Below are positions 27,961-36,337 of a DNA stretch of 64,000 bases, piece after piece. The stretch comes from a bacterium. GTDB lineage: Bacteria; Sumerlaeota; Sumerlaeia; SLMS01; JAHLLQ01. Both the position numbers and the translations under genes were made by a program. The DNA is taken from NCBI GenBank assembly GCA_020444065.1, contig JAHLLQ010000005.1, positions 62,001 through 126,000 of the forward strand, read 5' to 3'. The notes beneath the pieces are model-generated. The model was not told the origin of the DNA and made no database searches. It was given only the letters and a program-made list of their open reading frames with translations. Positions within the stretch are counted from its first letter, which is position 1. The number at the start of each line of letters is the position of its first letter.

Positions 27961-28063
27961 CGGGTAGGCCCGTTCTCCAAAAAAACTGTCGCCCCGCGGC
28001 ATTGCAGACCGTATAACTCAAGGGTGTGGAATCACTTTCGAGGCATGGGGGATCCGAGGTATG

Positions 28064-29860
28064 ATGGCAAAGCGGAGTTTCTTCACCATCCTGCTCGGGG
28101 TGGTTCTAGGCAGTTTTCTGACGGCTTGCGCGGGTTCTGTCGCCCATCGAGTAGTGATTCCGGATCCGGATGCGCGCTGGAAATCCGTGGAGATTGTGAG
28201 CACCGAAGTCTCTTCCCAAGGCGGCGCAAACCAGCTGCTGCGCACATCAGCCGGCGACTGGCAGGGGCGGCTTGTTCCCCAGCCCGGGGCCATGCGCGTG
28301 GACTATCGACTGCGTGCCGTTTCCGAAGATGGAACCAGCCTGTTCTTCCCCGATCCCAGCAACAGATTCTACACGATTACGCCCGATGGCGTCGTGCTCA
28401 GCGTCTGGCTGAACGATATTAACGATCTCGATGACTTCGAGTACTTCGCATACTTCCAGCCGACCGCGCATGATGTTTTTCTCAGCGGCAATTTCCTCAA
28501 CTGGCACGACGACGCGTTGCGACTGCTCCCCATGGCCGATGGGCCCGCGGGTCTGTTCACCGCGTTCGTCGAACTGAAGCGCCCATTCTCCTACAAGATC
28601 ATCGTCGACGATATCTGGGTTCTTGAGAACGCCAATCCGGATGCGCAGAAGATCATCCCGGATAATCTCGGAGGCGGGAACAACGCACGCGAAGTCGGCG
28701 ATCCGCCAATGATGACCTTCCTGCGACGACAGTTACGTTTCCAGGACACGTTGCCGGAGTTCAGTGCAGCGACCGCGTACGCACACATCGATGTTCCGTA
28801 CCCGCGGGCACCGCGCGATGGGGCCGATAAGGAACTGGAGCACTTCCTCGCGACCGGCAAGACGGACATGCCGAACCTGATTCGCGAGTACATGGATCTC
28901 TATAACGCGCCGATTCAACTCGTGCGCGAAGGCAAGCGGATGACGGTGACGGATCGCTTTCCATACACCTCGATGAGCGACCCCGCGCCCGACACGTTGG
29001 GATATTCGCAGACGGCGCGCGTCATGGCTGCGGGCGCGTTGATGCGGGCCACCGGCGGATACACCGTCAGCGCCGTTGAAGACATCACGGCGATCATGCG
29101 GATGGGCTATGTCCTGCAGCAGGAGAACTCGTCCATCCTGATGCATCTGATTGGAATCGAAGTCCGAGAGACGGCCGCGGAAGCCATGCGTGTGTTGCTT
29201 GAGAACAATGATGTCTCACCGGACGCACTTCAGGCCTATGTTGACGAGGTCTCTCTCTTGTCCCCGAAGAACGACGCACTCAGCGCCGCCCTCTTCAATG
29301 CGCTGGATGTGGCAGAGGGATCGCTGATCGAGACGGCGGAGAAGCCGGATTTCCATCCGGAGGCCATGGAGGAAGAGATGCGCGCCGCGGGTTTCACCGA
29401 AGCCGCCATCCGCGATTCCCTGGAGCCGGAGAATATCCGCTCGGACTTCGAGGGGTTGCGTGCGTTCTTCTCGCGCATCGATGCAATGGATGCACCGGAG
29501 CGCTATCAGGAAGGGACGGAACTGGCGGCTCAACTTGGGATGATGATCTCCGAACTGAATCCGATGATCCAGATTGCGATTCCTGATTTCCTCGGTGCCC
29601 AGGCTGCACAGGATACGGCGCGCACGCTCGAGCACATGAATGCAACGGCTGCATTGTTGAAGCTCGACGATCCGAAAGCTCTCAATCGCTTCAGCGATAT
29701 CTTTACCGGAAAGCCGTTCGAATATTACCCGACGGCAGCGAAACCGTTCCGGCTGCGTTCTCCCGGGCCGGACTCGCGGATCGAGGAATCCGTTCAGGCG
29801 TATGATCGCAAGAAGGGTGTGTTCTCTTCAGGTGACTTGTACTTTGGTCGTCCGAGGTAG
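28064..29860 (+). CDS. Lipoprotein with an E-set/AMPK-type glycogen-binding-like domain
   Basis: 598 residues. There are tandem ATGs at 28061 and 28064; the GAGG at 28056-28059 fits the second better. The signal peptide ends in a lipobox (FLTAC; Cys about 22), so it is a lipoprotein. About residues 130-205 contain YFAYFQPTAHDVFLSGNFLNWHDDALRL... FSYKIIVDDIWVLENANPDAQ (given in parts), the pattern of AMPK1-CBM/E-set domains that bind alpha-glucan. A long helical region without motifs (about 265-540) follows. It converges with dnaJ, with 9 bases between stops. Function unknown: it may bind glycan or simply use the Ig-like fold. Confidence 0.85.
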   Translation: MAKRSFFTILLGVVLGSFLTACAGSVAHRVVIPDPDARWKSVEIVSTEVSSQGGANQLLRTSAGDWQGRLVPQPGAMRVDYRLRAVSEDGTSLFFPDPSNRFYTITPDGVVLSVWLNDINDLDDFEYFAYFQPTAHDVFLSGNFLNWHDDALRLLPMADGPAGLFTAFVELKRPFSYKIIVDDIWVLENANPDAQKIIPDNLGGGNNAREVGDPPMMTFLRRQLRFQDTLPEFSAATAYAHIDVPYPRAPRDGADKELEHFLATGKTDMPNLIREYMDLYNAPIQLVREGKRMTVTDRFPYTSMSDPAPDTLGYSQTARVMAAGALMRATGGYTVSAVEDITAIMRMGYVLQQENSSILMHLIGIEVRETAAEAMRVLLENNDVSPDALQAYVDEVSLLSPKNDALSAALFNALDVAEGSLIETAEKPDFHPEAMEEEMRAAGFTEAAIRDSLEPENIRSDFEGLRAFFSRIDAMDAPERYQEGTELAAQLGMMISELNPMIQIAIPDFLGAQAAQDTARTLEHMNATAALLKLDDPKALNRFSDIFTGKPFEYYPTAAKPFRLRSPGPDSRIEESVQAYDRKKGVFSSGDLYFGRPR

Positions 29861-31879: not shown

Positions 31880-32668
31880 GTGCAAAGATCGATTTCGCGC
31901 TTCCTGGCTGCCTGGCTGATTGCTTTCGCCGGACTTGTCGCCTCTTGCGCCTCTCCCCAGCAGGAGATGAAGAGCACGCACAACCTGGCTGTCGACCCGG
32001 CAGCGCAGCCTGAGGACGAAGACCTTGCCCTCATGCTCGAGCCATACGCCGAGGAAGTCGCTGTCCTGAAGGCACCCATCGGTCGAAGCGCCGTCGCGAT
32101 GCCGCAGCCGGAAGCGGAGGCGCCCCTCGCCAGTTGGATGGCAGACGTCTCGCGCGAGCAGGCCTCCGAGGCCTTTGGTCGCCCGATCGACGCAGTGTTT
32201 CTGAACTGCGGCGGTATCCGCGCAGGCATTCCCAAGGGCGACGTCTCTCTCTTCACCTTCATGCAGGCAATGCCCTTTGAGAACGAAATCGTCGTGTTCG
32301 AGCTGTCCGCGGATCAGACCGAGCGCCTCGCGAAGAAGCTGGCCTCGGCGTGGGGGTATTTCCCGATTTCGGGCATGACGATCGAGGCCGATGCGGAAGG
32401 CAAACTGTTGCAGGTTCTCGTTGGTGGCGAGCCGCTCGATCCGGAGCGTACCTACACCGTCGGAACAAGCAACTACATCGCGGGTGGTGGCGACGGCATG
32501 AAGATGCTGCAGGACTTCGGTGAGATAGTGGCGACCGGCGTTCTGGTCCGAGAGGCGCTGATCGAGCACGCCCGCCGAAAGGCCGCGGCAGGGGAGCCCA
32601 TTTCCCCACCCGAGGACCCGTACCGCTATCGCTATGGCGGAAAGACCATGGAGGAGATGCACAAATGA
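31880..32668 (+). CDS. Lipoprotein with 5'-nucleotidase C-terminal domain
   Basis: 262 residues from a GTG start with TAAGGAG five bases upstream. The signal peptide ends in LVASC (lipobox, Cys about residue 23). The domain is the substrate-binding C-terminal half of UshA-type 5'-nucleotidases: NCGGIRAGIPKGDVS (adenine/nucleoside pocket loop) and YTVGTSNYIAGGGDG. In single-chain UshA this follows the metallophosphatase domain. Here it is encoded first as a separate lipoprotein, and the metallophosphatase gene follows with a 4-base ATGA overlap. The pair likely acts as an outer-envelope nucleotidase. Confidence 0.93.
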   Translation: MQRSISRFLAAWLIAFAGLVASCASPQQEMKSTHNLAVDPAAQPEDEDLALMLEPYAEEVAVLKAPIGRSAVAMPQPEAEAPLASWMADVSREQASEAFGRPIDAVFLNCGGIRAGIPKGDVSLFTFMQAMPFENEIVVFELSADQTERLAKKLASAWGYFPISGMTIEADAEGKLLQVLVGGEPLDPERTYTVGTSNYIAGGGDGMKMLQDFGEIVATGVLVREALIEHARRKAAAGEPISPPEDPYRYRYGGKTMEEMHK

Positions 32669-33582
32669 GACGCCGAGATTTCCTCAAGGCAGCAGGCGGT
32701 GCGGTTGGGCTCCTGGCACTTGGATCTCCGGGGATGCTGATGGCCAAGCCGGCGTCGGCGCTGCGGCTGACGCTTGTCCACACCAACGACGTGCACTCCC
32801 ACCTGGAGCCGAAATCCGAGGGCGAATACGCCGGGCTGGGCGGAGCTCCGGCGCGGTCTGCGATGATCGATCGATTTCGGGCGGAAAACGACCACGTGCT
32901 GTTGCTGGATGCCGGCGACACGATCCAGGGAACCCCGTACTTCAACCTCTTCCAGGGTGAGCCGGAAATGCGCGCCATGAGTGCCCAGGGCTATGTCGCC
33001 TCAACCATTGGCAATCATGAGTTCGACCCCGGCATGGAGCGCCTGGCCGAGATCATCGACAAGTATGCCGACTTTCCGTTCCTGAACGCGAACTACGACT
33101 TCACAAATACTCCCATGCAGGGCAAGACTCGCGAGTCCATCCTCCTGGAGCGCGACGGACTGGTGATTGGCCTGTTCGGGCTTGGCATCAAGCTGGAGGG
33201 CCTCGTCTCAACCAACCTTTACGGAGAGACCCGCTACCTCGATCCGATCGAGGAAGCCCGTCGTGTAGCCAGGCGACTGCGCCTGGAGGAGGGCGCGGAC
33301 TTCGTCATTTGCCTGTCGCATATCAACATCGGTCGGCGGAAACCTCACGCGGACGAGGAACCGGGCGATCGACAACTGATCCAGGCTGTGCCGGAGATCG
33401 ATGTCGTTCTCGGCGGGCACAATCACGTGTTGCTGAGAGAGCCCGAGCGCTACGAGCGCGCCTCGGGGCCCGGGTTCGTGAACCAGGTCGGCTGGGCGGG
33501 CACGCATCTGGGCGTACTGCAGTTCGACATCTTCGATCGTCAGAAGATCGAATTGGCAAGTGCCGGTCCGGCCGCTGTGTGA
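32665..33582 (+). CDS. Metallophosphatase (5'-nucleotidase catalytic domain), Tat-exported
   Basis: 305 residues. The N-terminus MRRRDFLKAAGGAVGLLALG has an RRDFLK twin-arginine motif, so export in folded form is likely. Dimetal phosphatase motifs are in order: HTNDVHSHLEP (D-x-H), DAGDTIQG (GD), IGNHEFDPG (GNHE), CLSHINIG (H) and LGGHNHVLL (GH-x-H). The C-terminal domain of UshA is missing here and is supplied by the previous gene. The start overlaps the previous stop by 4 bases. Its most likely role is hydrolysis of extracellular nucleotides to release phosphate and nucleosides. Confidence 0.94.
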   Translation: MRRRDFLKAAGGAVGLLALGSPGMLMAKPASALRLTLVHTNDVHSHLEPKSEGEYAGLGGAPARSAMIDRFRAENDHVLLLDAGDTIQGTPYFNLFQGEPEMRAMSAQGYVASTIGNHEFDPGMERLAEIIDKYADFPFLNANYDFTNTPMQGKTRESILLERDGLVIGLFGLGIKLEGLVSTNLYGETRYLDPIEEARRVARRLRLEEGADFVICLSHINIGRRKPHADEEPGDRQLIQAVPEIDVVLGGHNHVLLREPERYERASGPGFVNQVGWAGTHLGVLQFDIFDRQKIELASAGPAAV

Positions 33583-33739
33583 GTTAGCTGCCAGTATCGC
33601 CATGTGTATATTTCTGCGACATCCGTTTTTCCGGGCTTGCAACTGTCCGGGCACTTCGGGTTGGCTTTTTGTGAGCCTTGATGGTTCGGGACGTCGTGGG
33701 GAGATTGACTGAGTCCCGTTCCCCCGAGTGGAGTTCAGA

Positions 33740-36337
33740 ATGAGACGTATCGATTGGCGGAGCGCTGCGCCCCTGCTACTGCTTGCGGTGTTGCTCCCGT
33801 TCGTCGTGTCGGCTGACCGAATTGTCCTCAAGAACGGCAACGTTCTGGAGGGCAAGATCATCTCGATGGACGGCGCCGAAGTCGTCATCGAGACTGGTGG
33901 ACTGCGGCAGACGATCTTCACCGATCAAATTTCGGAAGTGACCCGCGAGGCCGATGAGGACATCGGCCCGGGCGAGCACTATGCCACCGAGGCGCGCCAG
34001 ATCCTTGAGGCGGGCGATCCATATGGCGCCTGGCAGAAGCTCGTCGAGATGGTCAAGGCCGAGCCTGCAGCTTGGAGCCGCAACGCAATTCTTGTCCGAC
34101 GCGTCGAGAAAGGGCTCTTCGACGCGACAGCTACCGCTCTGGACCGCAATCGCTATCAGCAGGCGTTGATGTTCCTGGATGCGCTTGGGGGAGACGCGAC
34201 CGGGAAACTGTGGGAATCCACAACGACGGCGCCCGTGGAAACCCGTCGGGAGCAGCTCCGTAAGTACTACGGACTGGCGTACTATCGGCTCGGTAAAGAG
34301 AACCGCACGAACAACAATCGCGTGGATGCCCAGAGGTTCCTGCGCCAGGCACTGCAGTTTCTTCAGCCAGGCGATCCCGCCTACGCGGACGCGCAATACC
34401 AGTACGGCTCGACGCTGAAAGACGAGGCTGCCGAGGTCTATCGCGCCGGCCAGGTCGAGCGATCCCGTGAAATCGTCGAAGAGGCTATGCGAGCCTTCGG
34501 CGAGGCGCGCTCGAATGCCGTTGGAGACATGGCGCTTGTGCAGTCCGCCAGCGAGGAACTGGAGCGCCTGCGCGACAACGTCCTGCCGCAACTCCAACGC
34601 GCGTTGATGACGCCGACCCCGACGCCGGTGCCGACCGCCACCCCGGTGACGCCTACGCCAACCCCGACACCAGAGCCAAAGTTCGTCGAGTCAATCCTCG
34701 GCACACAGGCGCGGGAGAAGATGCGCCTGGCGCTGAACAAGGTCCTTCCTCAGTCCATGGATTCGGGCAAAGCGCTCGACTGGATTGTGATCGCGGTTCT
34801 GTTCATCATCGGTTTCTGGATTGTACCCGGCGTGATCCTGCGATTCCCGGCCAAGAAGGGCGGATTCTACGCGGAGAAGTGGAAGAAGCGCGTTCTCTTC
34901 ATGGGGCCGTTTGCTCTGATTGCTTGCCTCCTCGACAAGATGCTCCATCGGCCGCGTGCCCGAAAGGGCGCCGACAAGCCCTGTCCCGGCTGCGGATTCG
35001 ACTTGGCCGACATCTACGCGTACGAGGATCTCGATTTCACGCGCTGTCCGAACTGCCGGACCGAGGTCGAGCCCATTCACTCGCTGGTTGAGTACATCAC
35101 ACGGATTTCCAACTCGCTGCTCATCGATGCCAAGCAGGTCGAGCGCGGCGCGCAGATGATGACGTCGCTTGTCGAGAAAGAGACAATGCAGCGCCTGATC
35201 CGCGCCGTTCTGACGCTCGGCGTTCGGCGGCGCTCCAGCGACCTGCACATCGAGCCCAGCTCCAAGGGCGTTCCGATTCGCCAGCGCGTCGACGGTATCA
35301 TGACCGAGATGGTCATCCTGCCGGGCGAACTGGCCCCCGCGATCGTCTCTGCCCTGAAGATCATGGGCGAGATGGACATCACCGAGAAGCGTCGTCCGCA
35401 GGATGGCGGATTCAACATCTGGATCGATGGCAACGAGATCGATATCCGCCTGACGAGCATCCCGGCCAGCGGCTACGAGCGCATGTCGCTCCGAATGCTG
35501 GATCGTCGCACCATCGAGATGGGCCCGAAGAAGCTCGGCATGGTTGCCGGCGTACGCCGCATGTTCGAGCAGGCGATCCACGAGCCGCACGGCCTGATTC
35601 TCGTCACCGGTCCGACCGGTTCCGGCAAGAGCACGACCTTGTACGTCGCTCTCCAGGAGCTACTGACCGGCGACAAGAACATCGTCTCGATCGAGGATCC
35701 GATCGAATTCCGCCTCGACGGCGTGAACCAGATCCAGGTCAACACGGCCGTGGGCCTGACTTTCGCCAGCGGCTTGCGCTCCATCCTGCGGCAGGATCCG
35801 GACGTGGTGATGATTGGCGAGATCCGCGATCGCGAGACCGCCGAGATCGCCGTCAGTGCCGCCAACACCGGCCACCTCGTGCTGTCGACGCTGCACACGA
35901 TCGATACGGCGACCTGCGTCTCGCGCCTGGTCGAGTTGGGCGTGAATCCGCGCCAGTTCGCCGAGGCCTTGAACGTCATCATGGCGCAGCGCCTGATCCG
36001 GATGATCTGTCCCGATTGTCGTCTGCCTGCAACGCCTGAGGATGCCGTTGTGACCGAACTCAACATCCCGCACGCCGAACTGGAGGAATATGGCTTCCAG
36101 GAAGGCAAGGGTTGTGCGACCTGCAGCAAAACCGGATTCTTTGGCCGCACGGGCATCTTCGAGATGATGGTGATGAACGAAGCGCTGAAGACGGCCTTCG
36201 AGACTCGTTCGCTGACGACCGGCGAGGTTCGCGAGATCGCCATTGTCAACGGCATGAAGACGCTCCGCCACGAGGCACTGAGCCTGCTGAAACAGGGCTT
36301 GACCACCGCCGACGAAGTCCTCCGCGTGACGAAGTAG
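33740..36337 (+). CDS. GspE/PilB-type secretion ATPase fused to an exported N-terminal region
   Basis: 865 residues from the ATG at 33740 (GGAG upstream; an in-frame GTG at 33728 is an alternative). Parts: signal-like hydrophobic segment (about 7-24, ending FVVSA); small beta domain ADRIVLKNGNVLEGKI (25-75), as in the gene at 680; helical TPR-like region to about 285; Pro/Thr linker (about 290-313); membrane helix 344-366; second hydrophobic segment about 385-401; zinc ribbon CPGC/CPNC (414-438); then a full GspE ATPase with Walker A GPTGSGKSTT (about 623), DPDVVMIGEIRD (about 686) and the tetracysteine CPDC/CATC (757-796). GspE/PilB normally is wholly cytosolic, so the exported front part is very unusual. 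No other secretion genes follow. Confidence 0.9.
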   Translation: MRRIDWRSAAPLLLLAVLLPFVVSADRIVLKNGNVLEGKIISMDGAEVVIETGGLRQTIFTDQISEVTREADEDIGPGEHYATEARQILEAGDPYGAWQKLVEMVKAEPAAWSRNAILVRRVEKGLFDATATALDRNRYQQALMFLDALGGDATGKLWESTTTAPVETRREQLRKYYGLAYYRLGKENRTNNNRVDAQRFLRQALQFLQPGDPAYADAQYQYGSTLKDEAAEVYRAGQVERSREIVEEAMRAFGEARSNAVGDMALVQSASEELERLRDNVLPQLQRALMTPTPTPVPTATPVTPTPTPTPEPKFVESILGTQAREKMRLALNKVLPQSMDSGKALDWIVIAVLFIIGFWIVPGVILRFPAKKGGFYAEKWKKRVLFMGPFALIACLLDKMLHRPRARKGADKPCPGCGFDLADIYAYEDLDFTRCPNCRTEVEPIHSLVEYITRISNSLLIDAKQVERGAQMMTSLVEKETMQRLIRAVLTLGVRRRSSDLHIEPSSKGVPIRQRVDGIMTEMVILPGELAPAIVSALKIMGEMDITEKRRPQDGGFNIWIDGNEIDIRLTSIPASGYERMSLRMLDRRTIEMGPKKLGMVAGVRRMFEQAIHEPHGLILVTGPTGSGKSTTLYVALQELLTGDKNIVSIEDPIEFRLDGVNQIQVNTAVGLTFASGLRSILRQDPDVVMIGEIRDRETAEIAVSAANTGHLVLSTLHTIDTATCVSRLVELGVNPRQFAEALNVIMAQRLIRMICPDCRLPATPEDAVVTELNIPHAELEEYGFQEGKGCATCSKTGFFGRTGIFEMMVMNEALKTAFETRSLTTGEVREIAIVNGMKTLRHEALSLLKQGLTTADEVLRVTK

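Follow-up and report, generated by a model that had tools for sequence, protein, structure and literature searches.

On the forward strand of a 64,000-nucleotide stretch of DNA from a bacterium of the phylum Sumerlaeota (the window), a single gene encodes what we regard as a type 4 filament superfamily assembly ATPase that is bitopic and anchors itself in the membrane, a reading to which we assign a probability of about 60%. Its product joins, in order, a signal peptide, an Sm-like beta domain, a TPR-like domain, a Pro/Thr linker, a transmembrane (TM) helix, a zinc ribbon with four cysteines and a PilB/GspE-type core (Table 1). A prior sequence-only reading had recognized a fusion in which an exported domain, a membrane helix and a zinc ribbon precede a complete GspE/PilB core, and this architecture is borne out by the open reading frame, by Pfam matches and by an AF2 model of the full protein (built from a 22-sequence alignment; mean pLDDT 84).

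Table 1. Features of the fused ATPase gene and its product, in window coordinates.
Feature	Position	Strand	Residues or motif	Evidence
Shine-Dalgarno-like stretch	33730..33733	+	GGAG	6 bases before ATG 33740; sequence
Whole gene, single intact ORF	33740..36337	+	865 aa + stop	homologous single frames in relatives
Signal peptide (predicted)	33740..33811	+	1-24	hydrophobic helix 6-22 (AF2), then family-conserved ADxxxxxxG Sm-like start
Sm-like beta domain, predicted exported	33812..33946	+	25-69	five strands 26-68, pLDDT mostly 77-95
TPR-like helical repeats, predicted exported	33974..34606	+	79-289	AF2 pLDDT 73-98 in blocks
Disordered Pro/Thr-rich linker	34613..34765	+	292-342	pLDDT <50 across most
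Transmembrane helix (predicted)	34769..34855	+	344-372; W360, P363 nearly invariant	alignment, AF2, hydrophobicity/charge comparison
Two short membrane-face helices (predicted)	34865..34945	+	376-388, 390-402; G389 invariant	alignment, AF2, hydrophobicity/charge comparison
Zinc ribbon	34982..35056	+	Cys 415, 418, 436, 439	four Cys invariant in 22-27 homologues
N2 + C-terminal ATPase domains, PilB/GspE type	35180..36334	+	481-865	Pfam T2SSE, PilB structures
Walker A	35609..35632	+	GPTGSGKS, 624-631	glycines and lysine invariant
Second, PilB/GspE-type tetracysteine	36008..36124	+	Cys 757, 760, 792, 795	invariant

The core is a member of the PilB/GspE/PilT superfamily, as shown by a match of Pfam T2SSE (PF00437) to residues 479-862 with 382 bits against a cut-off of 24.9 (E 2e-114), and Geobacter PilB aligns with residues 477-864 over their full length. 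Its best structural matches are PilB 5tsh and PilF 5oiu; with the PilB/PilF structures (5tsh, 5oiu, 5zfr) it has in common the N2 and C-terminal domains, 41-43% identity over about 385 columns, the same motifs and the tetracysteine, and it is about 42% identical to the core of GspE (1p9r, 4ksr, 4pht). The catalytic residues are invariant in 22 homologues (Walker A G624-K630, E652/D653, E694, H712 and H719), and the protein presumably hydrolyses ATP. By E-value the best NCBIfam match is the GspE equivalog TIGR02533 (457.8 bits), and the PilB equivalog TIGR02538 reaches 437 bits, both below their cut-offs of 630.25 and 675.65, respectively. The PilT model TIGR01420 scores 169 bits against the 437-458 bits of the PilB/GspE models, placing the core closer to PilB/GspE than to the PilT/PilU retraction ATPases. 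A C-terminal tetracysteine metal site is a feature of the PilB/GspE extension ATPases that is absent from PilT.

In ordinary systems the ATPase is soluble, and GspL or PilM keeps it at the membrane through the N1 domain. The fused ATPase differs from PilB/PilF in having a membrane helix, a zinc ribbon and an exported domain in front of the core and no N1/MshEN, and from GspE in lacking the N1 by which GspE binds GspL; PF05157 gave no match in the fused protein or in five homologues (L014, L040, L184, L190, L191). In a scan of the fused protein and the genome's four canonical PilB/GspE paralogues (L001-L004), all four paralogues carry the domain; the sixth ATPase of this genome is TadA-like. 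N1 is not universal among PilB/GspE extension ATPases, and reviews describe these enzymes as cytoplasmic (PMC10191384); the fused family, in which a signal peptide and a TM helix are predicted, departs from the PilB/GspE trait of being cytosolic with no TM helix of its own. Receiver-MshEN-PilB fusions (e.g. L058, Massilia frigida) likewise have a PilB core with an additional domain at the N-terminus but, unlike the fused ATPase, keep N1, with receiver and MshEN as Pfam domains and no exported part described. GspL and PilM-PilN are alike in function, in that they connect a cytoplasmic ATPase with the membrane and the periplasm, but are not relatives; the fused protein matched no actin-like domain and no GspL, PilM or PilN in Pfam. 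That GspL/PulL itself has been read as a PilM-PilN fusion offers a precedent for fusion of couplers (PMC10191384).

A single helix in the AF2 model, residues 344-372, is long enough to span the membrane. Lysine and arginine are more numerous in the 15 residues after it than in the 15 before it in every one of 28 homologues (means 3.7 vs 1.2); it exceeds the second hydrophobic segment in hydrophobicity, again in all 28, and the longest uncharged run of that second segment is at most 15 residues in 19 of them and at least 18 in four. Because positive charge is richer after the TM helix and the second segment is weaker and usually too short, the simplest reading is a predicted single pass, N-terminus out and ATPase in, and a second segment that lies on the membrane; this call combines hydrophobicity and charge over the 28 homologues and does not come from a trained predictor. 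The sequence-only reading had seen a puzzle here, the second segment being expected to put the ATPase outside if it spanned, and had offered two ways out, of which the homologue comparison favours a peripheral second segment over an N-terminus that is not exported. Under the latter alternative the signal-like helix would fail, the TM helix and second segment would form a hairpin and all else would be cytosolic; it gains something from the four homologues whose second segment is of spanning length, but the charge bias, the short segment in most homologues and a signal-like start followed by an Sm module typical of exported proteins make it very improbable. The label of zinc ribbon given earlier to the next segment proved correct in view of its four invariant cysteines; weak Pfam zinc-ribbon matches occur in 19 of 27 homologues, and comparison with solved structures returned no clear relative (best E 0.04).

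Two ways in which the fusion could be illusory had been named beforehand, namely a separate conserved start near residue 410 and a misassembled join of two genes. Between residues 372 and 482, no alignment column holds ATG or GTG in more than eight of 22 homologues, and at most two of those carry a Shine-Dalgarno-like stretch; with no internal start kept across the homologues, a separate downstream start is rejected. A chimeric assembly is likewise refuted, since the same fusion recurs in a single frame in about 30 independent assemblies. In four of four close pairs tested, dN is below dS in every segment, with dS near saturation, and the exported part thus appears to be under purifying constraint.

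The exported part falls into two modules, of which the TPR-like one had been named correctly from the sequence; AF2 and Foldseek show helical repeats that match TPR proteins (E 2e-4). The first 45 or so residues, left unnamed in that reading, correspond to an Sm-like barrel that matches Hfq 4nl3 over 50 columns in Foldseek, and the NCBIfam LA_0442/LA_0875 N-terminal domain matches the same region with E 9e-8, under its cut-off. Modelled alone, the N-terminal part reaches a pLDDT of 94. It is nonetheless the least conserved part of the protein, with no invariant column in its alignment. L190 keeps only the signal peptide and some tens of residues of it; in L037, L040 and L191 several membrane helices stand in its place, the TM helix, ribbon and ATPase being retained in all four. 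Since the exported part is variable and is lost or replaced in some lineages, the TM helix, ribbon and ATPase would constitute the essential unit, with the exported domain as an accessory. The Sm-like/TPR part seems to be a reused module: the same genome encodes a separate exported protein of 662 residues (L192) in which the same Sm-like domain comes first and TPRs follow. Such exported Sm-TPR proteins (L192 and those with the LA_0442/LA_0875 N-terminal domain) likewise have a signal peptide, an Sm-like start and helical repeats but, unlike the fused ATPase, are not joined to a TM helix, zinc ribbon or ATPase. In a second lineage, the gene ahead of the fused ATPase on the same strand encodes an exported TPR protein whose start is Sm-like (L184 8276-13583; L185 8466-13655), and in both loci an exported TolB_N-like and FGE-sulfatase-type protein also precedes the fused gene on that strand.

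A search for the same fusion in related genomes, suggested in the earlier reading, found it through most of the phylum: a TM-ribbon profile (A1) matched in 32 of 40 genomes, including 19 of the 20 of good quality, with one gene each, where three genomes giving two pieces of one frame were counted as holding one gene. Outside the phylum, about 346 genomes yielded two strong matches (G182 and G319), both in one family and with the same order of parts, and in seven further genomes the matches were weak and partial only. The N-terminal 472 residues, searched in 81 genomes, found homologues in the phylum whose frames run through the ATPase. A contig scan with patterns returned ATPase domains from other phyla and no fused protein, because the patterns came from a single sequence. 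The 31 fused proteins all form one long-branched clade (SH-aLRT 99) when 87 ATPase domains are placed in a quick maximum-likelihood tree; within the clade the second lineage, the family of G182 and G319, branches first, and the canonical PilB/GspE proteins of the same genomes lie apart.

No gene of a filament machine adjoins the fused gene in the window and no T2SS genes lie nearby; comparison of 21 neighbourhoods showed no neighbour conserved across the phylum and local synteny in one family only, and an operon with pilus genes is accordingly rejected. Among the matches listed, no pilC/gspF platform gene is linked to the fused gene, either in the window or at the fused locus in 13 genomes; in two genomes a PilT gene is nearby, at about 3 kb (L102) and less than 1 kb (L109), too few cases in our judgement to build on. 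Upstream in the window, two overlapping plus-strand genes (31880-32668 and 32665-33582) encode a 5'-nucleotidase that is split with its domain order reversed, the PF02872 C-terminal domain preceding the PF00149 metallophosphatase and each having a signal-like start. Farther upstream (28061-29860) lies a gene for an exported protein of 599 aa with a weak AMPK1_CBM glycogen-binding match, under cut-off.

Elsewhere in the genome, the genes for which the sequence-only reading had advised a search (pilB, pilC, pilT and gspD) are represented by four PilB/GspE paralogues, PilC/GspF, a PilT-type ATPase and secretins. There are three non-Tad PilC/GspF genes (C1:626k, C2:116k and C2:788k), seven secretin matches, three PilM-type genes and 49 proteins with prepilin-type N-methylation motifs, the last scattered across the genome and mostly away from the listed assembly genes. 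With such prepilins, platforms, secretins and PilM-type genes available, the needs of a filament motor could be met. The PilC gene at C2:788k has no extension-type ATPase beside it, but a PilT-type ATPase and pilin-like genes lie no more than about 12 kb away; the canonical PilB genes L003 and L004 and one PilC are also unlinked, and in these genomes assembly genes are often orphans. Other ATPases and platforms occur in every one of the 13 genomes examined, so that co-occurrence is uninformative on the partner of the fused ATPase; the notion that it might be the sole motor of a genome failed, as every genome examined has several PilB/GspE. Among the matches listed, from which only weak ones could be missing, full assembly ATPases outnumber non-Tad PilC/GspF by two in each of four genomes (G000, the present one, and G007, G015 and G035), an excess suggesting that the fused motor shares a platform or uses none.

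We therefore weigh several roles, of which a self-anchored assembly ATPase is the one we favour. The Sm-like/TPR-like part would be exported, one helix would cross the inner membrane from outside to inside, and the short hydrophobic helix and zinc ribbon would sit at the cytoplasmic membrane face. Beneath, the N2-CTD core would form the usual hexameric motor, working as in PilB/GspE, and the covalent TM-ribbon module would replace N1 and hold the ring at the membrane. The motor would act on a PilC/GspF platform and pilin-like subunits, and the exported domain, where present, may dock to periplasmic or envelope partners. An exterior sensor acting on the ATPase had been proposed at the outset; the exported domain itself stands, and the sensing role is weakened by its variability and loss. 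Because the TM helix, ribbon and ATPase are conserved and the exported domain is the least so, docking or anchoring is the better first guess for its function.

Under the sensing idea, the Sm-TPR domain would bind a periplasmic ligand or envelope part and switch the ATPase across the membrane. The confident fold of the exported domain in the model and its apparent purifying constraint are in keeping with this, as is the occurrence of the Sm-TPR module on its own (L192) or clustered with the fused ATPase (L184, L185), as if it were a shared binding module; yet a domain so poorly conserved, almost gone from L190 and exchanged for membrane helices in L037, L040 and L191, and separated from the TM helix by a 50-residue disordered linker that would be a poor lever, makes signal transduction unlikely. 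Alternatively, the protein might not assemble filaments at all, having been recruited to move or extract another inner-membrane protein or regulating assembly ATPases through mixed rings. The lack of a linked pilin, platform or secretin gene, the excess of assembly ATPases over platforms among the matches listed and the separate, long-branched clade would all suit such a role, but the protein keeps every catalytic and tetracysteine residue of the extension ATPases and shares its unlinked state with canonical PilB and PilC genes, and we judge recruitment decidedly unlikely.

Although its core is of a known kind, the fused protein appears to be new as a predicted membrane-integrated extension ATPase with an exported domain, encoded by a single gene fixed through a phylum; in the open-access literature, to which the search was confined, we found no description of a membrane-anchored or zinc-ribbon PilB/GspE. 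Beyond the reading favoured here, we raise as a tentative possibility that the family represents a separate branch of type 4 filament machines, in which an integral-membrane extension motor has its own trans-membrane coupler, the GspL/PilMN layer is dispensable and the motor is a core component of one phylum. For a poorly studied phylum, the finding adds a near-universal and otherwise undescribed gene. It is an open question in the field what holds the soluble PilB/GspE ring at the membrane and by what route its motion is passed on to the pilins (PMC6145873, PMC10191384), and anchoring has been argued to be necessary for the displacement mechanism in Thermus PilF (PMC6145873). In a natural protein that joins the motor with an anchor and a periplasmic domain, this coupling would become testable within one polypeptide.
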